A stretch of 64,000 nucleotides of DNA. It comes from a virus. The DNA lies in IMG/VR virus record IMGVR_UViG_3300021478_000016, positions 62,001 to 126,000 of that record. The stretch is one strand, 5' to 3'. The translations under genes were made by a program, and so were the position numbers. The notes under the pieces are model-generated. The model saw nothing but the letters and a program-made list of their open reading frames with translations, had not been told where the DNA came from and ran no database searches. Below, piece by piece: positions 3,968 through 38,894 of this stretch; position 1 is the stretch's first letter; every line of letters starts with the position of its first letter.

Positions 3968-6900
3968 ATGGCCTACCTCGACCCGACCGATGCCTACCAT
4001 CACCTCCGGGACCGGACGCTGGAGGGTCTCCACTACCTGTTCGAGTCGCCCATCAAGGGCAAGGCACGGTCCCTCTCGTTGACCAAGCTCGAGGTGGAAG
4101 ATCCTCTGCGGGTGGACGACATCCGAGGACAGCAGCGCGCCAAGATGAACGGCGAGACCTGGGGAGCTCAGGTCTTCGGCACCCTCGAGATGAAGGACAA
4201 CCTGACGGGCGCCGTCGTCGACACGAAGCGCATCCGCCTGACGGACATCCCCAAGACCACTCGACGTTACAGCTACATCGTCAGCGGTCAGGAGTACCAG
4301 GTCGACAACCAGTGGCAGCTCAAGCCTGGCGTCTACGTTCGTCGCAAGGCGAACGGAGATCTCGAGGCCCGCTTCAACGTGACTGGTCGTGTCGGGCAGC
4401 TCAACGCCATCTTCGACCCCGCCAGCAAGCTGTTCAAGGTCGAGTACCGCAAGTCCAAGGGCTCTCCTCTCTACCCCTTCTTGAAGGCCATGGGAGTCGG
4501 AGACGACGAGCTCGAGAAGACCTGGGGCAAGGAGATCTTCGAAGCGAACAAGAACGCACCCCGCAGTGCCGGTGCCGTCGAGTCCTTCTACAAGACCAAC
4601 ACCGGTCAGGTCGCTCCCTCACATCAGGCGGCGGTTCAGCATCTGCACGAGATCTTCCTGGACGCCAAGATGCGCCCCGAGGTCAATGAGGTCACTCTCG
4701 GTAAGCCGGTCGAGCACATCAGCGGAGAGGCCCTGCATCTGGCCACCAAGAAGCTGCTCGATGTGCAGCGAGGCGCTCCCGAAGATGACCGAGACAACTT
4801 GGTCTTCAAGGACCTGCGGTCAGCCGGTGACTTCGCCTACGAGCGCCTGCGCGGGTCGAAGAGAACCATCATCCAGAAGCTCCAGCGGCAGCTCAACAGC
4901 ACGAAGACGATGGGCGTTCGTGACGCTGTGCGCTTCGACTACTTCAACGAGCCGGTCAAGCAGCTCTTCACCAAGACCTCTATCGCCAACCCGGCGACGC
5001 AGATCAACCCCCTTCAGATGGTCTCGACTGCTATGCAGACGACCATCATGGGGCCTGGTGGCATCAAGAGCGAGAGGAGCATCACCGAAGAGGCGAAGAT
5101 GATCAATCCTTCGCATCTCGGATTCCTCGATCCCATCAACACGCCGGAGAGCGACAAGACCGGCGTGACGTTGCGTCTGCCGATGGGGATGAAGAAGAAG
5201 GGTACGGAGGCCACGATCGCGGCCTACAACCTGAAGACCGGCAAGTTCGACGACCTGTCTCCCAGCCTCTTTCTCAAGAGCAACGTGGTTCTTCCCGACC
5301 AGGTCGACTGGAAGTCTGGCAAGCCCGTACCCATCTCCGCGAAGGTGAAGATGGTGGCCGAACACAACCGCATCGAGGAACGGGGCTTCGGCGAGGCCGA
5401 CTACGTTCTGCGTCACCCCAGTCAGCTCTTCAACGTCACGTCGAACCTCATCCCCTTCTTGCCCAACGACTCTGGTGGTCGCGCCGGCATGGCCAGCCGC
5501 CACATGGAGCAGGCTATCTCGCTGGTGCATCGCCAAGCACCGCTGGTCCAGGTGGCCGCCCCCACGGTTCCAGGTAGCGGCATCGACAGCTTCGAACAGC
5601 TCCTCGGCCACCAGACATCGCATCGAGCCCCGGCAGCCGGTACGGTCACCAAGATCAAGAAGGACGCCATCATCATCGATGGCTCCGATGGCCAAGAGCA
5701 CGAGGTGCAGATCTACCACAACTACCCGCTCAACGACGTCAAGAGCGTGATGCACTCTTCTCCACTCGTGAGGGTGGGTGACAAGGTCCATCGAGGCCAG
5801 GTCATCGCTGACACGAACTACTCGAAGGACGGCACGCTCGCTCTCGGTACGAACCTCCGTGTCGCCTACGTTCCCTTCAAGGGGTACAACTTCGAGGACG
5901 GCATCGTCATCAGCGACGAGGCAGCGAGGAAGCTCTCGAGCGTCCATCTGCACAAGCCATTGCTGAAGATCGAGGCCAACACCATCCTCGACCCCAGGAA
6001 GTTCTCGGTCCTCCATCCCGGGGTCTTCAAGTCCGACCAGTACGACAAGCTGGACGAGAACGGGGTCGTGCGCATCGGTCAGAAGGTCAAGCCAGGTGAT
6101 CCGCTCGTGGTCGCGATGCGTCCCTTCGAGCTCAAGGACCGCTCCGGTCTGACCGCGATGCGCAAGGCGCTCAAGGCACACCACAGCGACAACTCGGTCC
6201 GTTGGGACAGCGACTTCGAAGGCGAGGTCGTTGCTGTGCACAAGACGCCAGAGAAGGTCACCGTCCACGTCAAGACGGTCGAGCCGATGCAGGTGGGCGA
6301 CAAGCTCTCCGGCCGCCACGGCAACAAGGGCATCGTCACCAAGATCTTGTCGAACGACGAGATGCCCAGAAGCAAGACCGGCGGTCCCATCGATGTGCTG
6401 CTGAACCCGAGTGGTGTGCCAGGACGCATGAACGTGGGGCAGGTCCTCGAGACCGCTGCTGCGAAGATTGCTCAGAAGACAGGCAGGACGTATCTCGTCG
6501 ACAACTTCGACCCCAAGATCACCGATGCGCTCACTCGAGTGAAGGACGAGCTCAAGAAGCACGGCATCTCTGACACCGAGGAGCTCATCGACCCAGTGTC
6601 CCATCAGCCTCTCGGGCCGGCGCTCGTCGGACCGCAGTACATGCTGAAGCTTGTGCACCAGGTCGAGAAGAAGTTGTCGGTGCGCAGCGGCATGAGCTTG
6701 CCGGGTCTGCCCGATGCAGAGCCCTACGACACGAATCTCCAGCCTGGTGGTGGTGGGCACGCTGGAGGGCAGAGCCTGAGCCATCTGGCCCTCTACGCGA
6801 TGCTGGCGCACGGCGCGAAGGCCAACGTGCGGGAGATGTCGACGTGGAAGGCTGAGGGCAGAGACCCCGAGCAGAACGAGGCGAAGCGTTGGCCGTCGCA

Positions 6901-9900
6901 GCACATCGAGGTCTGGAAGGCCATTCAAGAGGGCACGCCTCTGCCTCCTCCGAAGACGACCTTCGCCTTCAAGAAGTTCACCGACATGCTCAAGGGGGCG
7001 GGCATCAACGTCGAGAAGCAGGGGCACCAGTTCGTGCTTGGTCCGCTCACAGACAAGCAGATCATCGACATGTCGAGTGGGGAACTCACTCAGGCGGATA
7101 AGTCGCCTGTGCGTGCCAAGACGGACAAGTCCGGCGAGTTCATCGTGATGCCTGGTGGTCTCTTCGACGAGAGGATCACCGGTGGTCATGGTGGAACGAA
7201 GTGGGCGCATCTGCGTCTGGCCGAGCCAGTGCCGAACCCGGTCTTCGAAAGTGCCATCAAGAAGCTGACGGGTCTGAAGGAGCAGCAGTTCGACTCCATC
7301 ATGACGGGAGACGTCGGAGTCGACCCAGGTACCGGCAAGATCGTGTCTTCGAAGTTGGGGGTCACAGGCGGCGCAGGCATCAAGGCGTTGCTCGACCGCA
7401 TCGACGTGAAGCGTGACCTCGAGGCTGCGAAGAAAGAGCTCACGAAGACCCCTCTTTCGAAGGCGGACAAGGTCCTCAAGAGAGTGAAGTACCTCACTTC
7501 GCTCCAGCGTCTCGACCTGAAGCCGAGCGACGCGTACATCCTGCACAACATTCCGATCGTGCCTCCAGTCATCCGTCCGCTCACGATGATGGCGGATGGG
7601 GGTCTGAAGTACGAAGACATCAACGGGCTCTACAAGCAGTTCGAGACGATCAACAACCGCCTCAAGGACCCGGTCCTGTCCACCAACCTGACGGACCGCA
7701 AGAAGAAGGAGCTGCGCGATGCCTACTACGATGGCGTGAAGGCCATCATGGGTGTCGGGACGGTGAACAAGGACAAGAAGGAGAAGGGCCTGCTCGATCA
7801 GATTGCCGGCATCTCTCCCAAGGAAGGCTACTTCCAGAGCGTCCTGACCAACCGTCGTCAAGACCTCACGATGCGGTCGACGATCGTGCCCGAGCCCTCT
7901 CTCGGTCTCGACGAAGTCGGTCTGCCTCGTGATGCTGCGCTCACCCTCTTCCGCCCGTTCGTCATCCGCCAGCTCGTTCTTCAGGGTACGGCTCCTACGG
8001 CCATACAGGCCACCGCCGTCTTGTCGAAGGTGCACAAGGGGCAGGACGATCCCATGGTCTGGCGTGCGCTCGAGCACGTGATGAACGAACGCCCCGTGCT
8101 GCTGAAGAGGGACCCGTCTCTGCACAAGTACTCGGTGCAAGCGTTCAAGCCCCGTGTCGTAATGGGCAACGCCATCCAGATCCACCCGCTCGTGACCGGG
8201 GGATTCAACGCCGACTTCGACGGAGACACGATGGCCGTGTACGTGCCCATCAGCCATGAGGCCGTGCGCGAAGCCCAGAAGATGTTCCCCTCGAACAACG
8301 TCTTCAACGAGGCCTCAGGCCACGTGATGTACCAGCCCACCCTCGAGAGCGCCCTCGGCCTCTACAAGCTCTCGATGGTGGGCAAGAAGACCAACGCCTC
8401 CTTCGCGACCGACCAAGAAGCCGTGGAAGCCCTGCATCAGGGCAAGGTCCATCACACCGACATCGTGAGCGTGGGAGGCAAGACCACTACGCCAGGACGT
8501 GTGCTGCTGGCCTCCGTCCTGCCTGATGACTTGCACAAGCAGGTCCTGCACGATCTGGACTTCCGAGTCGACAAGAACGGCCTCAAGTCCATTCTCACCC
8601 AGGTCGGCAAGAAGAACGCCGGTGCGTTTGGACGCATCGCTGACGACATCAAGAACCTCGGCTACGACGCCTCGTTCGGCGTCGTGAAGACGTCTCTCGC
8701 CAAGGGGGGCAACGTCGCCATCGGAACACACTCCCTCTCCCTCGATGACTTCACCACCGATCGCGGGACTCGTGATGGGCTGCTTCGAACAGCACGCGAG
8801 AAGGTGAATGGCATCACCGCAAACCCTCGCCTGAGTCAGTCGGAGAAAGACCGCCAGTCGGTCAACGTCTGGGTCGATGCCTCCGACGAGATGATGAAGG
8901 AGCACCGTCGGAAGGCGGAGGATTCCCCGTCGAACCTCTACCTGATGGCTCGCGCTGGCGTGAAGCCGGACTGGAACCAGTACAAGCAGATGGTGCTGGC
9001 CCCCATGATCTACAAGGACTCGTTCGACCGGGACATCCCGACAGCCGTCACCAAGAGCTACTCCGAAGGGCTCGATCTTGGTGGATACTGGACGCAACTC
9101 TACGGCGCACGTCGAGGCGCCGTCATGAAGGTCCAAGAGGTTCAAGAGCCTGGCGCCCTCTCGAAGCTGCTCTTGAACACAACGATGAACATGCTCGTGG
9201 AGAAGCCCGACTGCGGAACCAAGAAGGGCGTGGCCCTGCTGGCTAGCGACCCGGATGTGCATGACAGACATCTGGCGCAGGCGTTCCACATCGGGCATCT
9301 GCATGTTCCTGAAGGCACGCTGCTGACGCCCGACATCGTCGGGCAGATCCGCTCGGCCGACAAGAACGCCAAGCTCCTGGTTCGCAGCCCACTCAAGTGT
9401 GAGGCGGAACACGGCCTCTGTCAGAAGTGCATCGGCCCATCTGTCGAAGGTCAGAACTACGAGCTCGGGACGAACATCGGCGTCATCTCCGCGCAGGCCG
9501 TCGGAGAGCGTGCGATGCAGCTCATGCTCAAGGGGTTCCACACCGGCGGTGTCCGTGAGGCTGGTGGCGGGTCGAAGATCGTGAACCAGTTCGACCGGTT
9601 CAAGCAGCTCACGACACTACCTACCAAGATCCCCAATGCAGCGACGGTGGCGATGACCAGTGGACGCATCGAGCGCATCGTGCCAACAGAGACCGGAGTG
9701 GACATCTGGATCAACGGCACCCGTCACTTCGTGGGAAGGGACCCGGCAGGTAACGCACTCCACATGCCGCTAACCGGTGCGAACCGAGATGCCCGTTCCA
9801 TCCCCTTCTCGGCCTCAAAGATCGGAGACCACGTCGAAGCGGGTACGATGCTCAGCGACCCGAATCGCACGTCCGTCAACCCTCATGACCTGTACCGTGC

Positions 9901-10363
9901 GACGGGCAGCATCGACGAGGTCCAGAATCAGATCACCGGAGAGATGGACCGCATCTACAACTCCAGCGGACCGACGGTGCGCAGGCGCATGCTCGAGACC
10001 CTCGTGAAGGCGATGAGCAACCTCACCAAGGTCGAAGACCCTGGAGACCACCAGTACATCATGCGCGGCGAGTTCCACCCGACGTCGGTGGTCAAGAAGC
10101 TCAACGAAACGGAGCTGAAGGGCAAGATGCCCATCCTCCACCGTCCGGTACTTCAAGGCGTGGACGTTCTTCCGCTATCCTTGCAAGAAGACTGGATGGC
10201 GAAGATGCAGCACGCCAAGCTCAAGGACACGCTCTACGAGGCCGCAGCGCAGGGTCTCGTCTCCAAGATCCACGGACCACACCCCGTTCCCGGTGTCGCG
10301 TACGGCGCCGAGTTCGGGCTCCCTCCGCGAGAGGGCAAGAACGTCCAGCCCTTCCACTACTGA
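3968..10363 (+). CDS. Single-chain multisubunit-type RNA polymerase (beta fused to beta-prime)
   Basis: 2131 residues in one uninterrupted frame. Residues 1 to about 1020 match beta in order: PGVYVRRK; GPGGI...INTPES (as in GPGGL...IETPEG); SNLIPFLPND; YNFEDGIVIS; GRHGNKG at 782-788; NPSGVPGRMNVGQ; and the beta end (EVWKAI..G.PLPPPK...FKKFTDMLKGAGIN). The next segment (MSSGELTQADK, GLFDERITG, AHLRLAEPV) is the start of beta-prime. Catalytic NADFDGD is at 1414-1420, a bridge-helix region follows near 1690, four cysteines (1749, 1811, 1818, 1821) match the second beta-prime zinc site, and the trigger-loop FHTGG has His1858. The usual beta-prime C-terminus is also present. It should transcribe phage genes. 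No alpha, omega or sigma gene is visible here, so partners may come from the host or from elsewhere in the genome. Confidence 0.96.
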   Translation: MAYLDPTDAYHHLRDRTLEGLHYLFESPIKGKARSLSLTKLEVEDPLRVDDIRGQQRAKMNGETWGAQVFGTLEMKDNLTGAVVDTKRIRLTDIPKTTRRYSYIVSGQEYQVDNQWQLKPGVYVRRKANGDLEARFNVTGRVGQLNAIFDPASKLFKVEYRKSKGSPLYPFLKAMGVGDDELEKTWGKEIFEANKNAPRSAGAVESFYKTNTGQVAPSHQAAVQHLHEIFLDAKMRPEVNEVTLGKPVEHISGEALHLATKKLLDVQRGAPEDDRDNLVFKDLRSAGDFAYERLRGSKRTIIQKLQRQLNSTKTMGVRDAVRFDYFNEPVKQLFTKTSIANPATQINPLQMVSTAMQTTIMGPGGIKSERSITEEAKMINPSHLGFLDPINTPESDKTGVTLRLPMGMKKKGTEATIAAYNLKTGKFDDLSPSLFLKSNVVLPDQVDWKSGKPVPISAKVKMVAEHNRIEERGFGEADYVLRHPSQLFNVTSNLIPFLPNDSGGRAGMASRHMEQAISLVHRQAPLVQVAAPTVPGSGIDSFEQLLGHQTSHRAPAAGTVTKIKKDAIIIDGSDGQEHEVQIYHNYPLNDVKSVMHSSPLVRVGDKVHRGQVIADTNYSKDGTLALGTNLRVAYVPFKGYNFEDGIVISDEAARKLSSVHLHKPLLKIEANTILDPRKFSVLHPGVFKSDQYDKLDENGVVRIGQKVKPGDPLVVAMRPFELKDRSGLTAMRKALKAHHSDNSVRWDSDFEGEVVAVHKTPEKVTVHVKTVEPMQVGDKLSGRHGNKGIVTKILSNDEMPRSKTGGPIDVLLNPSGVPGRMNVGQVLETAAAKIAQKTGRTYLVDNFDPKITDALTRVKDELKKHGISDTEELIDPVSHQPLGPALVGPQYMLKLVHQVEKKLSVRSGMSLPGLPDAEPYDTNLQPGGGGHAGGQSLSHLALYAMLAHGAKANVREMSTWKAEGRDPEQNEAKRWPSQHIEVWKAIQEGTPLPPPKTTFAFKKFTDMLKGAGINVEKQGHQFVLGPLTDKQIIDMSSGELTQADKSPVRAKTDKSGEFIVMPGGLFDERITGGHGGTKWAHLRLAEPVPNPVFESAIKKLTGLKEQQFDSIMTGDVGVDPGTGKIVSSKLGVTGGAGIKALLDRIDVKRDLEAAKKELTKTPLSKADKVLKRVKYLTSLQRLDLKPSDAYILHNIPIVPPVIRPLTMMADGGLKYEDINGLYKQFETINNRLKDPVLSTNLTDRKKKELRDAYYDGVKAIMGVGTVNKDKKEKGLLDQIAGISPKEGYFQSVLTNRRQDLTMRSTIVPEPSLGLDEVGLPRDAALTLFRPFVIRQLVLQGTAPTAIQATAVLSKVHKGQDDPMVWRALEHVMNERPVLLKRDPSLHKYSVQAFKPRVVMGNAIQIHPLVTGGFNADFDGDTMAVYVPISHEAVREAQKMFPSNNVFNEASGHVMYQPTLESALGLYKLSMVGKKTNASFATDQEAVEALHQGKVHHTDIVSVGGKTTTPGRVLLASVLPDDLHKQVLHDLDFRVDKNGLKSILTQVGKKNAGAFGRIADDIKNLGYDASFGVVKTSLAKGGNVAIGTHSLSLDDFTTDRGTRDGLLRTAREKVNGITANPRLSQSEKDRQSVNVWVDASDEMMKEHRRKAEDSPSNLYLMARAGVKPDWNQYKQMVLAPMIYKDSFDRDIPTAVTKSYSEGLDLGGYWTQLYGARRGAVMKVQEVQEPGALSKLLLNTTMNMLVEKPDCGTKKGVALLASDPDVHDRHLAQAFHIGHLHVPEGTLLTPDIVGQIRSADKNAKLLVRSPLKCEAEHGLCQKCIGPSVEGQNYELGTNIGVISAQAVGERAMQLMLKGFHTGGVREAGGGSKIVNQFDRFKQLTTLPTKIPNAATVAMTSGRIERIVPTETGVDIWINGTRHFVGRDPAGNALHMPLTGANRDARSIPFSASKIGDHVEAGTMLSDPNRTSVNPHDLYRATGSIDEVQNQITGEMDRIYNSSGPTVRRRMLETLVKAMSNLTKVEDPGDHQYIMRGEFHPTSVVKKLNETELKGKMPILHRPVLQGVDVLPLSLQEDWMAKMQHAKLKDTLYEAAAQGLVSKIHGPHPVPGVAYGAEFGLPPREGKNVQPFHY

Positions 10364-26330: not shown

Positions 26331-27455
26331 ATGAGCGTCCCCGCGAGAGTCATGAACGACCTCTTCACGCAGAAGCTCGGCACTGCGGAAGGCAAGGAGA
26401 AGATCGCCGAGTACGGCGGCACATACGTGCGCGACCGTCTGCGTGAGGTGAGCTACGCGCGGAAGGTCATTCCGCCGCAGCAGGTCACTCGCGCGGACTG
26501 CCAGCGGTCGGTCAACCACGACACGCTGGTGAAGATCGTGGACGTCGAGCCGCAGAGCCGCGCGCTCACGCTCACGTTCCGTGGTCAGCCGACGGCCCGC
26601 TTCATCCGCGGTCCGAAGGCCGAGGTCGCCTTCTTCACCGTCTCCTCGGAGATGTTCCAGAAGACGGAGCAGGAGCTTCTCGCCTACGAGATGCCCATCA
26701 CCAAGATCATCGAGGACAACTCGGTGAAGGACATCCAGGAGATCGAGGACCGCGAGTTCACGATCAACATCGAGGCGGCGGTTCAGGCGCTCCAGCAGCA
26801 GGCCAACGGCGGCGCGGTGACGACGCTCAACGCGGCGTCCATCCATGCCGGCACGGTGGTCGAGTTCTCCGTCCGCAAGGGCGAGCTCGCGCGCAACTCG
26901 ACGCTCGCGGGCAGCGCCACCGTCCTGCCCATCCAGCGGCCGGACCTCGTGAACCTCTTCAAGCTGCTGGACGGCAACAGGCTGCGCTCCGAGCGCGTCC
27001 TGATGACGGAGGTCGACTGGGACGATCTGCTCCAGTGGACGGTCGAGGACTTCGGCGACCGGCTCCAGTCGGAGACGGCCGTGGACGGCTACAAGTACAA
27101 CACGCTGCTCGGCCGCGCGTACATCCGCACGGTCAAGACGGACATCCTCCGTCCGGGCAACGTGTACGTCTTCACCCGTCCGGAGTTCTTCGGGAAGTTC
27201 TACGTCCTGAACAACTCGAAGTTCTACATCGACAAGATCGCGAACATGATCACCTTCCAGGCATGGGAGGACATCGCGATCGGCATTCTCAACATCGCCG
27301 CCGTGCGCAAGCTCGAGCTCTACTCGGGCGACGCGACGACGAACAACGCGGACGGCATCCTCGCGTCCGTGATTCCCGTGACGGAGGACCAGCTCGGTGC
27401 GGTGAACAACCAGGTCGACGCCGGCCTCCAGTTCCCGCAGGTCCAGCAGTTCTGA
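26331..27455 (+). CDS. Probable major capsid protein
   Basis: 374 residues with a strong GGAGCAAGGAG region before the ATG. Residues 25-60 resemble an N-arm; RSVNHDTLVKIVDVEP and PTARFIRGPKAEVAFF look like E-loop strands; residues 120-170 form the spine helix (EIEDREFTINIEAAVQALQQ); RPEFFGKFYVLNNSKF and the C-terminal part fit the HK97 P- and A-domains. Codon use is the most biased of the window (almost all G/C third positions), as expected of a highly expressed gene, and a strong hairpin follows the stop. No direct family signature was checked. Confidence 0.72.
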   Translation: MSVPARVMNDLFTQKLGTAEGKEKIAEYGGTYVRDRLREVSYARKVIPPQQVTRADCQRSVNHDTLVKIVDVEPQSRALTLTFRGQPTARFIRGPKAEVAFFTVSSEMFQKTEQELLAYEMPITKIIEDNSVKDIQEIEDREFTINIEAAVQALQQQANGGAVTTLNAASIHAGTVVEFSVRKGELARNSTLAGSATVLPIQRPDLVNLFKLLDGNRLRSERVLMTEVDWDDLLQWTVEDFGDRLQSETAVDGYKYNTLLGRAYIRTVKTDILRPGNVYVFTRPEFFGKFYVLNNSKFYIDKIANMITFQAWEDIAIGILNIAAVRKLELYSGDATTNNADGILASVIPVTEDQLGAVNNQVDAGLQFPQVQQF

Positions 27456-28146: not shown

Positions 28147-28647
28147 GTGGCTCTCGAAGGCATCCCCCAGTCGACTCCGTGCATGCGCAGCTTCGTTGCG
28201 ACTGCGCGCGAGTACATGAGAGATCACCCCGAGTTGAACCGGTTGGTCCGAGGGGAGGAGTCCAGTGACCGGCAGATTGCCTGGGCGGTTCTGGATGCGC
28301 TCTCGAGCTTCAACGGCACGCCTCCTCTCACGGCCTACATCCTCGACGAGCTGCTCATGCGCAACCAACATCACCTGCTCTTGCGCATGACCATCATCGC
28401 TCTTCTCGAGAGCGTGGCGCTTCTCCAGGTCCGCAACCACATCAACTACTCGAACGGAGGCATCAACGTCGGCGTCAACGACAAGGCACCGATGATCCTC
28501 CAGTGGCTCCAGTACTACAAGGCCTACACGGAGCAGCTCAAGCTCCGGGTGAAGGTGGCGCTCAACATCGAGAGCATTCTGGGGCCCAGCAACAGCGGCG
28601 TTCACAGTGAGCTGTGGGCCGTCAACGCGACCTACGCTGCCTACTGA
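28147..28647 (+). CDS. Putative head-tail connector / neck protein
   Basis: 166 residues from a GTG three bases after the previous stop. Helical with many hydrophobic residues (ILDELLMRNQHHLLLRMTII), followed by a region with Tyr and Asn. Its position after the capsid gene is that of connector proteins in myoviruses; no motif proves it. Confidence 0.5.
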   Translation: MALEGIPQSTPCMRSFVATAREYMRDHPELNRLVRGEESSDRQIAWAVLDALSSFNGTPPLTAYILDELLMRNQHHLLLRMTIIALLESVALLQVRNHINYSNGGINVGVNDKAPMILQWLQYYKAYTEQLKLRVKVALNIESILGPSNSGVHSELWAVNATYAAY

Positions 28648-28656
28648 GGTGGAGAG

Positions 28657-29160
28657 ATGCTCAAGGTCTACAAGTTTCGGGAGATGGATGAGATCATCGC
28701 TTTTCTCAGCGGTGCAGTCTTCGGCACGGACGTCTCGTTCTTCCGCCAGGCCATCGTCAACGGGTCAGCCGGGTACAAGGTGGCGCCCTCGCTCGTCGGG
28801 CTCACGTTCAAGACCAAGTCCCCCGGCCCAGCAGGTACCTGTACCTTCGTCGCCGGCGCTGATACGGCTGGAGGTCGTCTGACTCCCGCTGAGATCAAGA
28901 CGCAGATCGAGGCAGGCATCTCCGGTCTCAAGGTGACCTTCTTCGAGGGTCGCCTTGCTATCGCCGAGGCAACGCCCGCAAGCGGCGTGACGGTGGACCA
29001 CACCGGCACGTCGAACGTCGCACTCGGTTTCGACACGAACGCCGACGTCGTGGGCAAGTTCTTCAACTCGCCCTTCAGTGGAGCGCCTCCGACGACGCCG
29101 TACATGGTCCAGGCGTACTCGGTGAACGACAACATGCACGTGGTCTACACTTGGGAGTGA
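28657..29160 (+). CDS. Small beta-rich virion-type protein
   Basis: 167 residues; GGTGGAGAG before the ATG. Beta-rich with alternating hydrophobics (GLKVTFFEGRLAIAEATPAS), and a Gly/Thr-rich middle. It precedes the ferritin-like virion protein by 8 bases, so the two are co-translated. Structural role inferred from position. Confidence 0.5.
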   Translation: MLKVYKFREMDEIIAFLSGAVFGTDVSFFRQAIVNGSAGYKVAPSLVGLTFKTKSPGPAGTCTFVAGADTAGGRLTPAEIKTQIEAGISGLKVTFFEGRLAIAEATPASGVTVDHTGTSNVALGFDTNADVVGKFFNSPFSGAPPTTPYMVQAYSVNDNMHVVYTWE

Positions 29161-29168
29161 GGCTCAAG

Positions 29169-31538
29169 ATGGCGACGGCATTCGACCCCATGTTCCGGCA
29201 GGGCCCTTCGATGGGCGAGGGTGCGGACTTCTTCCTCAAGCTGAAGAAGTTCGCGGAAGATCCGGCGACGGGTCCGGCGGAGCCGATGGCTTCGTCGGGA
29301 GCTCCGTTCCAGGACCAGGTCCTCGAGCTGATGCTCAACATGGTCCAGAACGAGTTCAAGACCATGCTCGCCTACAAGACCTACGCGCAGACGCTGCGTG
29401 GGCCCGAGCACTTCGGTGTGGCGAAGGAGTTCGAGGAGCATGCCGAGAACGAGATCGAGCATGCCGACTTCTTGCTCCGCCGTCTCTCGGTGCTGATGGG
29501 TGGTCCGGTGCCGGTGCCGGACATCCCAGCTCCCGAGCCTCTCGACTCCTGCGAGGACATCATTCATGCGATGATCGCCATGGAGCAGGAGGGCATCAAG
29601 AACTGGCAGAACCTCCTCTCGATGCTGGGCGACAACCCGACGAAGTACAAGGTCGAGGAGTTCCTGGCGCGGGAGCTGCACCATGTCGACGAGCTCTTCC
29701 AGCTTCTTCCCTCCGAGACCGCGCAGGCGCAGCAACCGCAGCCTGGTGGCTCCACTTCTGCTCCTCCTGCTGCTCCTCCTGCTGCTCCTCCTGCTGCTGA
29801 ACAGCCCGAAGCTCCGCCGGCTACTCCTCAAGCTGGTGATGGACCTCAGGCCGGGCAGCCGCCCGGTCTGAAGCTCTCGAGCGTCAAGACCGCTGCGCGT
29901 CAGCGCTTCACGCGGGACGACAAGGGAAACATCGTTCAGATCCCCGCTCGCTACGAGGGCAACCCCGAAGACCCGGGCTCGTTCTCGAGCGCCCTCGACG
30001 AGGCGTTCAAGTACGCGTGCAAGACCGCCGGCATCAAGATCCCCGCTCCATCCCACGACAGCACCAAGGGCAGCTCCGAAGCCAAGACGCCGAACGGTGC
30101 CCAGAACCTCGACGTCTTCGACGCCGGCGGCAAGGAGGCATCCAACACGGGCCTCGGCAAGCCGCCGGTCGTCCCGATGGAGAACGAGCCGACGAGCGAC
30201 GCGAAGGATCCGCAGGAGGAGACGAAGCAGGCAGCCGCTGCTCCCGAGCATCTTCGCAAGGCGAAGGAACGCGGTGAGGCCAATGCTGTCGCGCGCTCCA
30301 CGCAGATGAAGGGTCAGCGCGGAGAGCTCTACGGAGACCTCGTCGGCCGCCTTCTCGGCGGTGCTGCTGGTTGGAAGGCGGGCAAGACTCTCGCTGGCAA
30401 GAGTGGAAGCACGCTCGCTCGCGTCATGGGGGTCGGCATGGCCCAGGCTGCGGGCGGCCGGGTGGGGAAGCAGATCGGGAGAGAGGCCGACGCTGCACGC
30501 GCCAAGAAGAAGTACGGCGCAGCCCTCATCGAGAGCCTGCCGTCCTTCCTCAAGACCGCCCTCGAGGACGAGATGAACATGCTCGCCCAAGAGCAGGCGG
30601 CAGAGCAGGCGGAGATGGCCAACGCCGGCCGCTTCTACGCGACCCGCGCGCAAGAGCACGCGCAGGCCCGACAGGCGCTCGAGCAGCAGCTCCAGCAGGC
30701 GCAGTCGGACCTGGAGCAGAAGGAGACGTCGATCCAGCAGATGCAGGAGGCCATGGCCGCCAACTCGTCGGCTGCGAGCGAGTCCACGACCAGCGCCATG
30801 CTCCAGGCCGTCAACTCGAATACACAGGCCATCCAGCAACGGCAGCTCGCCTCCGACGCGGCCAACGCGAACATGACCCTGCGCGACCAGCTCCGTCAGC
30901 TCGCCGACGGACCGAGCGACGGCAACCCGCAGGGCCCCGGTGACATCCAGGGTGCCGTCCAGGGACCCTCAGGCGGCCCGACCTCCGGCAACGGGGAGAA
31001 GGAGCTCCAGGACGGTCCGGGCAGCGCCCCGCCGGCTGGCGAGAGCAACGCCTACCAGCCCATCCAGAGCCCCGAGAGCGGGCTAGCCAAGGGCGAGCCT
31101 GGACGCGTCGTGGGCATCGCCGGCGACAGCCGGCAGCCCTCCACGCCCTCGGCCTACAAGGACGGCGGGCAGGGCAAGCAGGCGGGCCTCCAGCTCCCGC
31201 CGGACGTCAAGGCGAAGCTCCGCGGCATGGGTCTGGGCGCCGCGGCCGGGGCCGGCGTGCTCGGTGGGGCGACGGCCATCGAGGCGGCACGGGGACCCGG
31301 ACCGGTGCGCGAGAAGGTGGAGAAGCTCGAGGCGAAGCCGGAGAGTTTCCGCAACTCGATGCAGACCGCGCAGGCGAAGGGGCATCTCGCGTTCCGCGAG
31401 GCAGTGGCAGAGCATCCGGTAGCCGCGACGGCGGCCTCGATGCTTCCTGGTGCTGCGCTCGGGGCATCTCTCGGTCCGGCGGCGGTGAGCGCCGGCAAGA
31501 AGGTCATCCAGAACATCAAGGCGCTCCGCGCTCAGTGA
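29169..31538 (+). CDS. Virion-type protein with N-terminal ferritin-like di-iron domain
   Basis: 789 residues from the second in-frame ATG. Residues 48-182 form a four-helix bundle with every ligand of a ferritin/bacterioferritin di-iron centre: Glu62, Glu95-x-x-His98 (in ENEIEH), Glu139, and Glu169-x-x-His172 (in ARELHHVDEL); the spacing is close to that of bacterioferritin. A Pro/Ala linker with three APPA repeats follows, then a Gly-rich segment near 400-440, a long Gln/Glu/Ala coiled coil (about 470-580), and a C-terminal glycine-zipper region. Such a bundle could bind or oxidise iron inside the virion. The rest looks like an internal or ejected virion protein. The role is inferred from the ligand set and the location among neck genes. 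Confidence 0.78.
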   Translation: MATAFDPMFRQGPSMGEGADFFLKLKKFAEDPATGPAEPMASSGAPFQDQVLELMLNMVQNEFKTMLAYKTYAQTLRGPEHFGVAKEFEEHAENEIEHADFLLRRLSVLMGGPVPVPDIPAPEPLDSCEDIIHAMIAMEQEGIKNWQNLLSMLGDNPTKYKVEEFLARELHHVDELFQLLPSETAQAQQPQPGGSTSAPPAAPPAAPPAAEQPEAPPATPQAGDGPQAGQPPGLKLSSVKTAARQRFTRDDKGNIVQIPARYEGNPEDPGSFSSALDEAFKYACKTAGIKIPAPSHDSTKGSSEAKTPNGAQNLDVFDAGGKEASNTGLGKPPVVPMENEPTSDAKDPQEETKQAAAAPEHLRKAKERGEANAVARSTQMKGQRGELYGDLVGRLLGGAAGWKAGKTLAGKSGSTLARVMGVGMAQAAGGRVGKQIGREADAARAKKKYGAALIESLPSFLKTALEDEMNMLAQEQAAEQAEMANAGRFYATRAQEHAQARQALEQQLQQAQSDLEQKETSIQQMQEAMAANSSAASESTTSAMLQAVNSNTQAIQQRQLASDAANANMTLRDQLRQLADGPSDGNPQGPGDIQGAVQGPSGGPTSGNGEKELQDGPGSAPPAGESNAYQPIQSPESGLAKGEPGRVVGIAGDSRQPSTPSAYKDGGQGKQAGLQLPPDVKAKLRGMGLGAAAGAGVLGGATAIEAARGPGPVREKVEKLEAKPESFRNSMQTAQAKGHLAFREAVAEHPVAATAASMLPGAALGASLGPAAVSAGKKVIQNIKALRAQ
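29760..29795 (+). repeat. 12-bp tandem repeat, 3 copies, coding APPA
   Basis: GCTCCTCCTGCT occurs three times back to back. It is in frame in the ferritin-like protein gene and codes for the Pro/Ala linker after the di-iron domain. Such repeats change length easily by slippage, so linker length may vary between isolates. Confidence 0.85.
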
Positions 31539-31545
31539 GGAGATC

Positions 31546-32550
31546 ATGCTCGACTCGTTCCTGGCAGCCGCCTACGACAACACGAAGAAGAACGAGGAGA
31601 AGCGCGCGATGGTCGACGCGCTCAAGAAGTTGCCGGCGCCCTTCCTCGCGAAGCTCGCGAGTCGAGAGGTGAAGCTCGGCGACATCTTCAGCGCCCCGAA
31701 CTGTTCCAAAGACGGCGACGAGAGCTGGCTCGGCAAGTTCAAGGGCACGCCGCTGGCAGAGCAGGCGATGCAGCTCGAACAGGCCGAGCTCCAGCTCGAG
31801 ATGCAGCGACTCGAGAACCAGCAGCAGAGCCGGGCGGAGAGCCAGGCCAGCAACTCGATCTGGGACCAGCAAGACCAGCTCCGCCTCCAGAAGAAGCTCC
31901 TCGAGCTTCAGCTCTACCAGATGGAGCTCGAGGGGGAGCATGCAGCCATGGCACCACCCGCGACCGTCGACACTCAGAAGAAGAAGCCGATCCCGGAGGC
32001 AGGCAATCCGGGTGCTGGCTCGATGGGCCCGGAGGCCGAGAACAGCGAAGAGAACATGGCTCCGGTGGGCACTCGGGGTCCCGGCGATGCCAAGACGGCT
32101 TCGCTGAAGAAGCTCAGCGAGAGCCCGATGGGCAAGATCGCCGACGCCTGGGGTCGTGAGCTCGCACGCTCCGACATGCAGAAGACCGCCCTGCCCTCGA
32201 TGGGCACTCTCGCCGGCGCCGGCAAGAGCATGCTCTCGGGCGCCAAGGGCATCTGGGGCGCTCTGCCGTCAGCTCAGAAGACCAAGATGCTCGGCGGTGC
32301 TGCGGTGGGTGCTCTCGGTGGTGCAGCAGCGACCGGCCACGATCAACAGGGCTTCCACCCGCTGCGCGCCATCGGCGGAGCTCTCGGAGGCGCTGCCCTC
32401 GGCGGTGCCGCAGGCGGGGCGGCGCACAACATCGCCGAGAAGGGTCTCGCCGGCGGCATCTCGCAGAGCGTGCAGCAGGGCAAGAACATCGGTGGCTTCC
32501 TCGCTGGGCAGGCCCGCGCTGCGATGCCGGGCCTCTCCCCAAAAGTCTGA
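31546..32550 (+). CDS. Virion-type protein: FLAAAY start, coiled coil and glycine-zipper helices
   Basis: 334 residues; GAGGAG before the ATG. It begins MLDSFLAAAY, shared with the 23154 protein. Residues 75-125 form a Gln/Glu/Leu coiled coil (AEQAMQLEQAELQLEMQRLE). Residues 205-300 hold Gly/Ala-rich zipper helices (GALGGAAATGHDQQG..., GGALGGAALGGAAGGAAHN). The same overall architecture occurs in the 29169 protein, and both may be internal virion or membrane-crossing proteins. No family recognised. Confidence 0.55.
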   Translation: MLDSFLAAAYDNTKKNEEKRAMVDALKKLPAPFLAKLASREVKLGDIFSAPNCSKDGDESWLGKFKGTPLAEQAMQLEQAELQLEMQRLENQQQSRAESQASNSIWDQQDQLRLQKKLLELQLYQMELEGEHAAMAPPATVDTQKKKPIPEAGNPGAGSMGPEAENSEENMAPVGTRGPGDAKTASLKKLSESPMGKIADAWGRELARSDMQKTALPSMGTLAGAGKSMLSGAKGIWGALPSAQKTKMLGGAAVGALGGAAATGHDQQGFHPLRAIGGALGGAALGGAAGGAAHNIAEKGLAGGISQSVQQGKNIGGFLAGQARAAMPGLSPKV

Positions 32551-32657: not shown

Positions 32658-32993
32658 ATGTCCCCGGGAGTAGTCCCCGCTCCCGGCAAGAGCCACTCGC
32701 TCGCTGTCGGAGAGAGCTTCCAGAAGATGTACGAAGGCCTCGACTCGAACATGCAGAAGACGATCTCCTCTCTGCCTCTCGTGTCGCAAGGCCATCTCAG
32801 TCCCGCAGCCGCGCTCAACATCCTGCACTACGACAAGAAGCCCGGAGAGCAGCTCGGCGACGTCGTCTCGCGCGTCGCTCTTCCGAGCTCCATCCCCTCA
32901 GCGCCTGGTGGGTCCTCGATTCGACCGCGCTCCATGGCCACCGTCGGCCCGCGCCCACGCAGCTCGTCTGCGTTCGCCACCGGAATCGGATGA
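32658..32993 (+). CDS. Small hypothetical protein
   Basis: 111 residues; the ATG with GGAGG seven bases upstream is chosen over an earlier in-frame ATG. A helical middle (VGESFQKMYEGLDSNMQ) is followed by a Ser/Pro-rich tail. It sits between virion-type genes. No family recognised. Confidence 0.5.
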   Translation: MSPGVVPAPGKSHSLAVGESFQKMYEGLDSNMQKTISSLPLVSQGHLSPAAALNILHYDKKPGEQLGDVVSRVALPSSIPSAPGGSSIRPRSMATVGPRPRSSSAFATGIG

Positions 32994-32994
32994 C

Positions 32995-33912
32995 ATGCCC
33001 GTCTCGATCGAGGTCATCAAGCTCAAGGTTCGGTCCCTCGACCGGAACCTGATTGAGATCTCCTGGGAGCTCAAGAGCACCCAGGAGGATGTCTTCGACT
33101 ATCAGTTCCAGATCTACCGCAGTGAGTCGCCGAGTGGACCCTGGGACATCATCTCGGTCCCCTTCCAGGACGAGTACCTCTTCATCGACAACGCCATCTG
33201 GGTCGGAGATCGATGGAGGATGCTGCACTATCAGGTGCGGGTCATCCACGTTCCGACAGGAGACACGAAGGACTTCGGCCCCGTGACCCAAGAGGCAGAG
33301 CCCGACCTCATCGCCCTCGAGCTGCGCCGCCACACCCAGCTCCTCTTCCACGAGTACGCTGGTCGCAAGTGCTGGGTCTTGCCGATCCGCACCTTCGGTC
33401 CTCGCTGCGAGTGCTGGGACAACCGCCTCCAGAAGAAGACCCGGTCCCGCTGCGAGCTCTGCTTCGACACCGGCTTCGTGCGAGGGTACCTGTCCCCCAT
33501 CGAGGTCTGGATGCAGGTCGATCCCTCACCGAAGACGAACCAGGTGACGAACGTGGGCACGATGCAGCAGTCGAATACGACTGCGCGAGTCGGCTACTAC
33601 CCGCCGCTCAGACCGAACGACCTCATCGTCGAACCGGAGAACCGCCGCTGGCGTGTCATCCAGGTCAACCAGACGGAGCAAGGTCGGGCCGCAGTCCATC
33701 AAGAGCTCCAGCTTCACGAGATTCCCCATCGTGACATCGAGTACGCTGTGCCGCTTCTCTTGGACCAGGCGCTCAAGGACATCTGGTTCTCCCCGCCGCG
33801 CAACTTCACGATGCCGACCAATCTCCAGAACGTGGAAGACACCGACATCCTCGACCCGTTCTCCATCTACCCGGCGCAGATCCCCGACCCCTCCAGCTTC
33901 GGTAAGGGATGA
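32995..33912 (+). CDS. Probable neck/connector protein with fibronectin-III-like and zinc-ribbon parts
   Basis: 305 residues; the start two bases after the previous stop is preferred because the upstream frame overlaps the other gene. Residues 1-95 have the beta pattern of a fibronectin type III fold (IEVIKLKVRSLDRNLIEISW ... FQIYRSESPSGPW). Residues 135-160 carry a CEC...CELC zinc motif before DTGFVRGYLSP. The C-terminal half is beta-rich (NDLIVEPENRRWRVIQVNQ). Phage proteins of this layout occur near neck and tail-completion genes. The exact role is inferred. Confidence 0.55.
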   Translation: MPVSIEVIKLKVRSLDRNLIEISWELKSTQEDVFDYQFQIYRSESPSGPWDIISVPFQDEYLFIDNAIWVGDRWRMLHYQVRVIHVPTGDTKDFGPVTQEAEPDLIALELRRHTQLLFHEYAGRKCWVLPIRTFGPRCECWDNRLQKKTRSRCELCFDTGFVRGYLSPIEVWMQVDPSPKTNQVTNVGTMQQSNTTARVGYYPPLRPNDLIVEPENRRWRVIQVNQTEQGRAAVHQELQLHEIPHRDIEYAVPLLLDQALKDIWFSPPRNFTMPTNLQNVEDTDILDPFSIYPAQIPDPSSFGKG

Positions 33913-35394: not shown

Positions 35395-38268
35395 ATGGCG
35401 TCGAGTGGCCTGCCGCAACCCGGGGTCGAAGTCATTCAGGTCTTCCAGACGGTCAGCCCCACCGTCATCACCCCGACGCTCGTTCCGTGCGTCGTCGGCG
35501 CCTGCAAACAGGTCGTCGATGCTGTGGTGCCGAGCGCCACGGGCAGCACCCAGGTGAACTCGGGGGCGCAGGTCGAGAAACCTGCCACGCTCACGGCCAT
35601 CGCCGCAACGGGCGGACCTCCGGTCGTCTACACGCTGAACGGGAACCTCAAGTTCGCGTCCGATGGGCTGCCGACCGTGACCGTGAACTTCGTGAGCGGT
35701 ACGTACACGCCGCAACAGGTGGTCACCATGGTCAACGCCGCGATCCTCGCGGCGGGTCAGTCCAACCTCGTCGCCGAGCTCGTGGGCACCACGCAGTGGC
35801 GCCTGCGCACGCTCTCGGAGACGGACTTCGACTTCATCTCGGTCGACCCGACTTCGACGTCCGGCGTGCTCACGGCGTTCGGCTTCTTCGGCAACGAGTT
35901 CAAGTCCGGCGCGGCTTCGTACCACCAGTTCCAGGTCACGATCCCCACACCGTCGTTCCCGGACCCGAACAACAACCTCGCGCAGCTCGCCATCGATACG
36001 ACCACCATCCGTGGATTCCTCGGCATCTCGGGCAACGCTGCTCTTCAGGAGGCGCTGCGCACGCAGACCGTCCTGCGCAAGGGTGGCGCCACGACGGTGA
36101 TCGATAGTGGAAACGGAACCGGCTTCTCGAACATCATCCAGGCCGCAGGACAGGACTTCACGTCCCTGTCTACGGTGGCCACGGTGGCGTCCGTGACCGG
36201 CTCGGCAACGCCGACGTTCGGCAGCCTGGCGGGCAAGACCCTGGTCGTCTCGGATGGACGTGAGCCCATCACAGTCACGTTCGGGACGTGCGCGGTCATC
36301 GGCGATGTCGTCGCACAATTCAACGCGTTCTTCAGCGCGACGGACGGCATCCTCGCCTCGGCCTCGGGCACGGACCTCACGCTCACCAGCACGCGCCTGC
36401 GTGAGGATGGCCTGACGACCGCTCTCGGTGAGGACAGCTCGATCGTCCTGCTCGGCGGCAGCGCACTGTACCCGACCAACCTCCTCGATCCGGGTGGCAC
36501 GCCGACCCTCCACATCGGCCGCTACACCGGCAGCCCGATGGCTGTCTTCCCCGGCGACCAGCTCTTCATCGACGGTGTTCTCGTCGGCGTCATCAACCAG
36601 GTCGCTCCGAACGGACAGAACGCGCAGCTCCGCGTCAACGCGAACAAGCCACTCTCGTTCACCGGCAGCCACTTCTACATCGTGGCGACGAGCCTCGCGG
36701 CTCTGCCCGGAGAAACAGCGAACCGCCCGCGTCCCGACTTCATCGTGGATGCGAACGGCAACGCGACGTTCAAGCACGGCCTGCTGCGAGACTCGAATGG
36801 AGTCGTCGTCGAGTCGCTCCAGACGTCGGCCCTCGTCGAGCCGAGCAGCAACATGTACATCGCGTACAAGGCGCTGCGACTCGATGTCTCGAGCAGGGCG
36901 ACGAACCCGGGTCTGCTCCAGTTCAGCGACACGGCGACGCTCCAGAGCCAGCTCGCTCCCATCACGACGGACAACCCGCTGGGTCTCGGTCTCTACTTCG
37001 CCCTGCTCAATGCACCGGCGGTGCAGATCACCGGTCTGGGTGTGGACGCAGTGTCTCCGAGCGAGCCGTTCGGCACCCTGGCAGCGTTCACGGATGCGGC
37101 GACGTTCCTCGAGCAGTTCGAGGTGTACGCCATCGCGCCCCTGACGCACGAGACGACGGTCCATCAGGTCTTCCAGACCCACGTCGACACGATGAGCGCG
37201 CCCGAGAACAAGGGTGAACGCATCGTGCTCGTCAATCCGAGCAAGCCCGTCAACCGGCTCAATGCGCTGGTGGCATCCGGCACGGACGGCAACACGATCG
37301 GCACGGGCGGCCTGACCTTCGACACGGGCATCGCCAACCTGACCGCGCTGCTCGTCGCTGCGGGGATCTCGAACCCGGCCTCCATCCCGGTGAGCTCGGG
37401 CGTCTTCCTCAACATCAGCGACAACAACCTCAACTACAACGTCTCGGCGGTGAGCGGGTCGGTCGTGACGGTGAACATCACCTTCACGGGCAGCCAGAAC
37501 ACCGACGGCTTCTTCTCGACGACGGACCTCAAGACTCCGCCGCTCCCATCGGCGCTCATCGAGGACCCGTTCTCCATCAAGGTCCGCGGCACGCCGCTGG
37601 TCTTGACGGACGGCATCACGCCGGACAAGCCGAGCATCGCCTCGACCATCACGGCCATGGCGCAGGCGTTCCTCGACCGCCGCGTGTGGATGGTCGTGCC
37701 CGATACGTGCGCCGCCACTCTCGGTGGGGTGGAGCAGGTCCTCGACGGCTTCTACATGTGCGCGGCCATCGCGGGCATGATCGGTCAGCAGCCTCCGCAG
37801 CAGTCGTTCACCAACTTCCCGATGACTGGCTTCACGCGCGTCATCGGCTCGAACGACTTCTTCACGCCGCAGCAGATGAACCAGATGGCTGGTGGCGGCG
37901 CGTACATCATCCTCCAGGACGTGAAGGGCGTCAGCCCGCTGTACTCGCGTATGGCGCTGACCACCGACCTCACGTCCATCGAGACGAGGACGGACAGCAT
38001 CACGAAGATCGTGGACTTCTGCGCGAAGTTCTACCGCACCGGTCTGAAGAACTTCATCGGGCGGTTCAACATCAACCAGGGTCTCCTCGACTCACTGGGT
38101 CACGTGCTCCAGGGTCTCACGGGATTCCTCACGGAGTCCGGCGTCCTCATCGGCGCGCACGTGAACAACTTGATCCAGGACACCGCGGCTCCCGACACCG
38201 TGCTCGTCGACATCACGCTCGACGTGCCATTCCCCTGCAATTACATCCGCATCACGCTCGTCATCTGA
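35395..38268 (+). CDS. Tail sheath protein
   Basis: 957 residues, preceded by AAAAAGGAG. The N-terminus (PGVEVIQVFQTVSPTVI, ...LVPCVVGACKQ) and C-terminus (FIGRFNINQGLLDSLGHVLQ, ...PCNYIRITLVI) are the typical conserved ends of myoviral sheath proteins, which polymerise around the tube and contract on infection. Many phage sheaths are about 400-660 residues, so extra domains fill the middle (residues about 120-600), perhaps exposed on the outside. The product is expected to be very abundant, and codon use is strongly biased. Confidence 0.88.
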   Translation: MASSGLPQPGVEVIQVFQTVSPTVITPTLVPCVVGACKQVVDAVVPSATGSTQVNSGAQVEKPATLTAIAATGGPPVVYTLNGNLKFASDGLPTVTVNFVSGTYTPQQVVTMVNAAILAAGQSNLVAELVGTTQWRLRTLSETDFDFISVDPTSTSGVLTAFGFFGNEFKSGAASYHQFQVTIPTPSFPDPNNNLAQLAIDTTTIRGFLGISGNAALQEALRTQTVLRKGGATTVIDSGNGTGFSNIIQAAGQDFTSLSTVATVASVTGSATPTFGSLAGKTLVVSDGREPITVTFGTCAVIGDVVAQFNAFFSATDGILASASGTDLTLTSTRLREDGLTTALGEDSSIVLLGGSALYPTNLLDPGGTPTLHIGRYTGSPMAVFPGDQLFIDGVLVGVINQVAPNGQNAQLRVNANKPLSFTGSHFYIVATSLAALPGETANRPRPDFIVDANGNATFKHGLLRDSNGVVVESLQTSALVEPSSNMYIAYKALRLDVSSRATNPGLLQFSDTATLQSQLAPITTDNPLGLGLYFALLNAPAVQITGLGVDAVSPSEPFGTLAAFTDAATFLEQFEVYAIAPLTHETTVHQVFQTHVDTMSAPENKGERIVLVNPSKPVNRLNALVASGTDGNTIGTGGLTFDTGIANLTALLVAAGISNPASIPVSSGVFLNISDNNLNYNVSAVSGSVVTVNITFTGSQNTDGFFSTTDLKTPPLPSALIEDPFSIKVRGTPLVLTDGITPDKPSIASTITAMAQAFLDRRVWMVVPDTCAATLGGVEQVLDGFYMCAAIAGMIGQQPPQQSFTNFPMTGFTRVIGSNDFFTPQQMNQMAGGGAYIILQDVKGVSPLYSRMALTTDLTSIETRTDSITKIVDFCAKFYRTGLKNFIGRFNINQGLLDSLGHVLQGLTGFLTESGVLIGAHVNNLIQDTAAPDTVLVDITLDVPFPCNYIRITLVI

Positions 38269-38285: not shown

Positions 38286-38894
38286 ATGAATCAGCTTGAC
38301 AACATGATCAATAGGAGCTTCGGCTTCTTGACGGTCGTCGAGCGCGCCCCGAACGATCGCTTCGGGAACGTGTGGTGGAGATGTTTGTGTCGCTGTGGAG
38401 GGGCTTGCCTCAAGCGGGCCTCTCAACTTCGCGAAGGAAAGTTCTTCACCTGCGGTCGAGAGGCCTGTCGCTTCTGGTCGAAGGTCTACGTTCCTGAGGG
38501 AGATAGCTGCCACGAATGGACTGGCGGTCTGAAGGACTCCGGGTACGGCCAGTTCAAAACCTCTACAGGCACGATCTCAGCTCACATCTACGCCTGGGAA
38601 CAGAAGCATGGTCCCGTGCCTGCCGGGAAACTCCTACGGCACACCTGCGATGTAAGGCACTGCGTTCGTGATGACCATCTGCTTTTGGGAACGCATCTAC
38701 AGAACATGCAGGACATGGTGGATAGGGGGCGAAGTCATTCCCCAAGACCGCCTCTTCCTGTCCAGAAAAGACTGGAACTGCTACAAGACAAGGAGGAGGG
38801 TTTCACCGCCCTCGCTCTAGTCGAGAAGTACGGTGTGAGCCTCAGGACGGTGAGTAGGATCATCCAAGAACACCGCAAGGGAGTGGATCAATGA
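38286..38894 (+). CDS. HNH endonuclease with Zn-finger and C-terminal helix-turn-helix (mobile)
   Basis: 202 residues; GAGGAGATGCA upstream. An N-terminal Cys cluster (RCLCRCGGACL ... FTCGREAC) looks like a zinc finger. A central HNH part (SCHEWTGG, HIYAWEQKHGP, LRHTCDVRHCVRDDHLLLG) matches the HNH_3 type, and a C-terminal helix-turn-helix (FTALALVEKYGVSLRTVSRI) would aid site recognition. It is inserted exactly between the sheath and tube genes and its stop overlaps the tube start (ATGA). Mobile homing-type endonuclease is the best reading. Confidence 0.85.
   Translation: MNQLDNMINRSFGFLTVVERAPNDRFGNVWWRCLCRCGGACLKRASQLREGKFFTCGREACRFWSKVYVPEGDSCHEWTGGLKDSGYGQFKTSTGTISAHIYAWEQKHGPVPAGKLLRHTCDVRHCVRDDHLLLGTHLQNMQDMVDRGRSHSPRPPLPVQKRLELLQDKEEGFTALALVEKYGVSLRTVSRIIQEHRKGVDQ

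Follow-up and report, generated by a model that had tools for sequence, protein, structure and literature searches.

A predicted heme-free bacterioferritin/DpsL-type domain as an optional module of a phage head-tail-operon protein

Introduction

Iron in phage particles is a matter of debate (the 'Ferrojan Horse' hypothesis). The locus described here raises the question of whether a phage could carry an iron enzyme within a protein encoded among its structural genes. We analysed a 64,000-nt stretch of DNA (hereafter, the window) that is part of a 142,432-base IMG/VR record and belongs to a large tailed phage for which metagenomes are the only source. An initial annotation of its sequence had proposed that one ORF fuses a ferritin-like di-iron domain to a virion-type protein. 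We asked what this domain is, whether its metal site is likely to work, where the protein would act and how the fusion is distributed among related phages.

Results

A ferritin-like four-helix bundle within a 789-residue protein

The ORF starts with an ATG that has GGGAG 11 bases 5' of it, and its product comprises an N-terminal motif, the ferritin-like domain and a long body, here called the chassis (Table 1). Residues 58–179 matched the Pfam family Ferritin (PF00210) with E=2.2e-13 when the whole protein was the query and E=1e-14 with residues 1–197; the score of 55.1 bits is above the curated cut-off of 24.5. The N-terminal part also matched PF02915 (Rubrerythrin) at 1.7e-6. By sequence, the nearest solved chain was DpsL (PA4880) of P. 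aeruginosa (phmmer E=1.7e-8; profile 1.7e-11). An AlphaFold2 model of the domain, built on 13 aligned relatives, has helices at residues 47–75, 79–110, 128–153 and 158–178 with block-mean pLDDT mostly of 92–98, while the first 46 residues were poorly determined. The top Foldseek match of the domain was the mini-bacterioferritin 9qq4 (E=6.7e-6, TM by target 0.85, rmsd 2.2), and others were DpsL 8w1e, B. anthracis 2qqy (TM by target 0.87) and E. coli bacterioferritin (Bfr) 1bcf (0.70). The domain proposed for residues 48–182 was thereby borne out: the Pfam match, the AlphaFold2 model and the Foldseek searches agree far beyond chance, and the predicted fold is a four-helix bundle and no other. 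We consider the assignment of residues ∼47–181 as a ferritin-like domain of the di-iron type to be confirmed at the level of sequence and model. As the net charge of the domain is −14, a role in DNA protection by direct DNA binding is not favoured.

The rest of the protein largely fits its earlier description. Its linker, coiled coil and Gly/Ala-rich stretches were all recovered. None of the hydrophobic segments attains the level of a classical membrane helix, their Kyte-Doolittle maximum (19 residues) being 1.34. The N-terminal motif has the family consensus MxxFE..L..GIPLxEAAxFFxKLK, which is common to orthologs devoid of the ferritin domain; in the majority of relatives whose sequence is complete, an HMM detected it where the orthologous ORF begins, and it gave no other good match in the related loci. 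A T4-type capsid-targeting and cleavage role was considered for this motif, and no Peptidase_S77 or S78 prohead protease, which would have pointed to packaging and processing as in T4, was found in the 142 kb record. The C-terminal module follows the pattern LRxKVxxLE...AQxKARLAxxEFxxxHPxAA... in 13 aligned orthologs, with and without the ferritin domain.

Table 1. Positions in the window of the ORF, its parts, the putative metal ligands and the neighbouring genes
Feature	Position	Strand	Basis or remark
Major capsid protein (MCP)	26331..27455	+	phrog_2522 E=8.6e-9; 28% identical to Salmonella phage Arash MCP
Conserved upstream neighbour g166	28147..28647	+	Profile match E=2.7e-22 to Arash, over 'structural protein' gp233
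Upstream neighbour g167	28657..29160	+	Conserved in clade, undetected in Arash
Whole ORF, 789 aa: N-terminal motif, ferritin domain, chassis	29169..31538	+	ATG start
N-terminal motif, residues 1–31	29169..29261	+	HMM matches at ortholog ORF starts
Ferritin-like four-helix bundle, residues 47–181	29307..29711	+	PF00210, AlphaFold2, Foldseek
Ligand Glu62 (Bfr E18)	29352..29354	+	Invariant in all ten intact forms
Ligand Glu95 (Bfr E51)	29451..29453	+	Invariant in intact forms
Ligand His98 (Bfr H54)	29460..29462	+	Invariant in intact forms
Ligand Glu139 (Bfr E94)	29583..29585	+	Invariant in intact forms
Ligand Glu169 (Bfr E127)	29673..29675	+	Invariant in intact forms
Ligand His172 (Bfr H130)	29682..29684	+	Invariant in intact forms
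Pro/Ala-rich linker, residues 183–365	29715..30263	+	Composition
Gly/Ala-rich (glycine-zipper-like) segment, residues 366–450, net charge +11	30264..30518	+	Composition; ortholog counterparts
Gln/Ala-rich coiled-coil region, residues 451–590	30519..30938	+	Sequence; ortholog counterparts
Conserved C-terminal module, residues 680–789	31206..31535	+	13-ortholog alignment
Downstream neighbour g334a, Gly-zipper protein	31546..32550	+	Clade-specific
Conserved downstream gene g334b	32908..33912	+	Profile match E=4e-36 to Arash, over 'structural protein' gp234
Tail sheath (contractile tail)	35395..38268	+	phrog_279 E=4.6e-8; Arash and Vibrio D69 homologs

The putative metal site is of the heme-free bacterioferritin/DpsL type

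We take the ferroxidase ligands of E. coli bacterioferritin to be E18/E51/H54/E94/E127/H130, with Tyr25 and the heme Met52 in the same numbering. All six ligands named in the initial annotation are numbered exactly, and in HMMER alignments each of them fell on an E. coli Bfr ligand (Table 1). The Bfr-type pattern E...ExxH...E...ExxH (E62, E95/H98, E139, E169/H172) is complete within one subunit, which would give an intra-subunit site, unlike the subunit-interface site of classical Dps. Two further residues do not vary among the nine full-length intact forms (those keeping every ligand), namely His91 and Tyr69, the latter being the counterpart of Bfr Tyr25.

Three known proteins served for comparison. 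With E. coli bacterioferritin 1bcf the phage domain has in common the complete set of ferroxidase ligands and the Tyr25 equivalent. It differs in being fused to a long phage body and in having no heme methionine; the model shows no bundle-packing fifth helix, residues 179–197 forming no long helix. The Ca. Methanoperedens mini-bacterioferritin (PDB 9qq4; PMC13168243) is likewise a four-helix bundle of similar length, but it is a heme-containing 12-mer, whereas here the heme-methionine position (residue 96) is Ile, Thr or Leu in all intact forms but one, the partial L066, which has Met. DpsL PA4880 (PDB 8w1d/e/f; PMC11150526) shares the intra-subunit Bfr-type di-iron ligands and the HxxxExxHAD stretch around Glu95/His98. 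PA4880 stands alone as a 12-mer cage whose BC loop contains a short helix; the corresponding loop here (residues 111–127) has no helix in the AlphaFold2 model, contrary to what defines DpsL, and the bundle lies within a 789-residue phage protein. The domain has 0–1 cysteines per intact form and none is conserved, so the Cys pair of thioferritin is absent.

Classical Dps, heme bacterioferritin and thioferritin were each rejected on their defining residues. Since it has no heme Met or conserved Cys and, in the model, shows no BC-loop helix or fifth helix, we filed the domain as heme-free bacterioferritin/DpsL-type, outside Bfr, Dps and thioferritin proper. Judged from sequence and model, it is a ferroxidase domain of this type joined to a head-tail-operon protein, and it very probably forms a working di-iron site.

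The gene lies between conserved structural genes

The placement of the gene in a structural-gene region was upheld, in that it is part of a head-tail operon with the MCP gene on one side and the tail sheath gene on the other, and with synteny conserved in relatives. Most relatives whose contigs span the stretch have the order g166–g167–ferritin-bearing gene or its counterpart–g334a–g334b. The isolates found via the MCP were only distant ones, Salmonella phage Arash and three Vibrio phages (26–28% identical), and the collections searched contained none from the clade itself. In Arash, Vibrio phage D69 and the Acidobacteriota MAG contig L093, the homologs of g166 and g334b are directly adjacent, and the ferritin-bearing gene, g167 and g334a therefore appear to be a clade-specific insertion. 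We detected no counterpart of the ferritin-bearing gene in Arash or D69, and an attempt to map the chassis onto an Arash structural protein failed; for this reason a virion location has to be argued from synteny. The insertion between conserved structural genes, together with the coiled coil and the Gly/Ala-rich segments, favours a role in the particle or its assembly. From its operon position, synteny and coiled-coil/Gly-rich body, we consider it somewhat more likely than not that the protein is a virion component, packaged or ejected as the initial annotation supposed.

A different reading is that of an enzyme of the infection phase, a Dps/DpsL-like detoxifier of iron and peroxide that is made from a late operon in the infected cell and is no component of the virion. 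There are precedents for it: Dps and manganese catalase genes of phages have been reported and read as protecting the host from reactive oxygen (PMC8008677; PMC6669764), and a virus-encoded bacterioferritin was reported from lake sediment (PMC10904782). These are ferritin-superfamily enzymes on phages too; in the available parts of these reports they are described as separate genes acting in the infected cell, and none as a head-operon fusion. The domain studied here, on the other hand, never stands alone but is always fused to a chassis that orthologs keep without it, and the surrounding operon genes are all head/tail genes or clade-specific neighbours. We regard an infection-phase enzyme as unlikely.

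Two further genes of the window were recorded. An HNH endonuclease with an HTH (38286–38894, + strand; PF13392 E=4e-12), probably a homing endonuclease, is encoded beside the tail sheath gene. At 3968–10363 (+ strand), a single ORF of 2131 aa contains domains of two RNA polymerase subunits, beta (Rpb2_6 E=1e-59) and beta-prime (Rpb1_2 E=4e-30, Rpb1_5 E=2e-15), and is, by these matches, a fused single-chain beta-beta' polymerase. It is uninterrupted in 8 of 10 related phage records (ORFs of 2144–2217 aa), and in Arash and Vibrio D69 the polymerase is split at another point, into about 1541–1546 and 610–628 aa. The homologous ORF of G040 (the record of L078; 61510–71205) encodes 3259 aa, and its match is broken at query residues ∼395, ∼1428 and ∼1859, as though by large insertions, perhaps inteins.

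A clade-wide chassis occurs with and without the ferritin domain

The MCP served to recruit relatives: 80 of the 244 related viral stretches that it brought up were retained, and among these contigs several are 170–195 kb long. Searches with the ferritin domain alone or with the tail sheath recovered none. PF00210 was found in 15 of 46 whole related records, where it always formed part of this ORF and in no case a gene of its own; among these 15 there are near-copies (L002/L003, L017/L020/L021 and L059/L060). The other 31 were without the ferritin domain, many of them being fragments of genomes that may carry it elsewhere, and the domain is thus not essential. Where contigs of relatives cover the region, an ortholog with the N-terminal motif, Gly-rich segments, a Gln-rich coiled coil and the C-terminal module usually sits between g167 and g334a. 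As chassis orthologs exist with and without it, the ferritin domain is, from these comparisons, an optional module of a clade-wide protein chassis.

In some relatives the long protein is present as two adjacent ORFs (L054, 5820–7205 and 7209–8399; L025, 13937–15142 and 15115–15501), the second of which matches the rear part of the 789-aa protein; its modules are therefore separable. Another intact form, additional to those 15 records, is in L091 (JAKPDW010000082.1), a contig of this phage clade binned in a Deltaproteobacteria MAG (NCBI lineage Myxococcota), which hints at a host, and this may be a binning error. Neither the whole protein nor the MAG version gave a tblastn match in 50,697 phage records, and no chassis homolog was found in any isolate of the collections searched.

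It is most unlikely that a coincidental resemblance of helices, or a misassembly of a bacterial ferritin gene with a phage gene, lies behind the domain, and nothing was found in favour of either. Many metagenome contigs that are independent of one another, and one MAG, have the same fusion at this locus, by which the artefact is refuted; in addition, the Pfam match is strong (E=1e-14), the fold is confident and GC3 is alike in the domain (0.89) and the chassis (0.82).

The ligands are conserved in some lineages and lost in others

The nine full-length intact forms, from viral contigs and the Myxococcota MAG, are 52–74% identical over residues 48–182. All six ligands are among the 39 invariant columns of 135, for which the chance is ∼4e-4, a value that ignores relatedness and comes from rows chosen for His98, so that this column is invariant partly by construction. 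NG86 dN/dS was about 0.25–0.45 for most intact pairs with usable dS, dS being near saturation.

Three other forms have lost ligands: E62K, E95D and H98D in L059/L060, E62R, H98A and E169D in L058, and all six in L061. A match to Ferritin persists in L058, L059 and L061, and the predicted structure of L061 is again this four-helix bundle, from an alignment that included intact relatives and may be biased by them. As the bundle is kept in these forms, it may have a value without the metal. This is the evidence for a purely structural bundle, that is, an oligomerisation or spacing module in which metal is at most stabilising. Against it, the intact forms retain every ligand and the Bfr Tyr25 equivalent despite their divergence, and the ligand-less forms are the most diverged overall (29–46% identity to the intact ones), as expected under relaxed constraint. 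We therefore hold the purely structural explanation to be improbable. As far as sequence comparison can tell, selection has kept the metal site in some lineages, and in others it has decayed.

On the MCP tree, many branches of which are weak, intact, degenerate and absent forms are interleaved. Presence and absence of the domain required 7 changes, below every one of 500 shuffles. This is consistent with a domain that was gained early and then, repeatedly, lost its ligands or was deleted; alternatively, the domain may have been exchanged between phages.

Discussion

On balance, we favour the explanation that a cellular, heme-free bacterioferritin/DpsL-type domain has been inserted behind the N-terminal motif of a clade-wide head-tail-operon protein, and that it oxidises iron as part of the particle. 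By analogy with the DpsL family, the interior of the bundle would bind two irons, and Fe(II) would be oxidised with O2 or H2O2, resulting in less Fenton damage. DpsL PA4880 itself oxidises Fe2+ with O2 or H2O2 and also nicks DNA in vitro (PMC11150526). The operon position and the coiled-coil/Gly-rich body suggest that it would act inside the capsid, in the neck or as a protein that is ejected, close to the packaged or incoming DNA. A ferroxidase is more likely than a mineral-storing cage because extensions of 46 residues at the N-terminus and 600 residues at the C-terminus flank the bundle. The fullest version of this scheme is more tentative and, in our estimate, less likely than not. It holds that a functional ferroxidase is built into the virion, so that di-iron centres in every particle would oxidise Fe(II) or consume peroxide beside the DNA, an ancestral phage of the clade having gained the domain, whose metal site was later lost on more than one occasion.

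Our searches of the open-licence literature yielded neither a head-tail-operon protein with a bacterioferritin-type domain nor a ferritin or ferroxidase of the virion. Within that literature the architecture appears to be new, phage ferritins and Dps being already known as separate genes. Other ferritin-like fusions may exist, because four BFVD entries (A0A6J7WVS4, A0A6J7WIS1, A0A6J7XDU5 and A0A6J7WPK9) are long proteins of uncultured phages in which a segment has a ferritin-like fold; the identity is 13–15% and the E-values of the fold matches are weak (8e-4 to 1e-2). Their names, Dps or Prohead protease, are automatic annotations.

The sequences suggest that an iron enzyme has been built into a protein of a phage structural region. 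Because related phages carry the domain intact, with its ligands lost or not at all, they form a natural mutant series, through which the value of the iron centre to the phage particle is directly testable.
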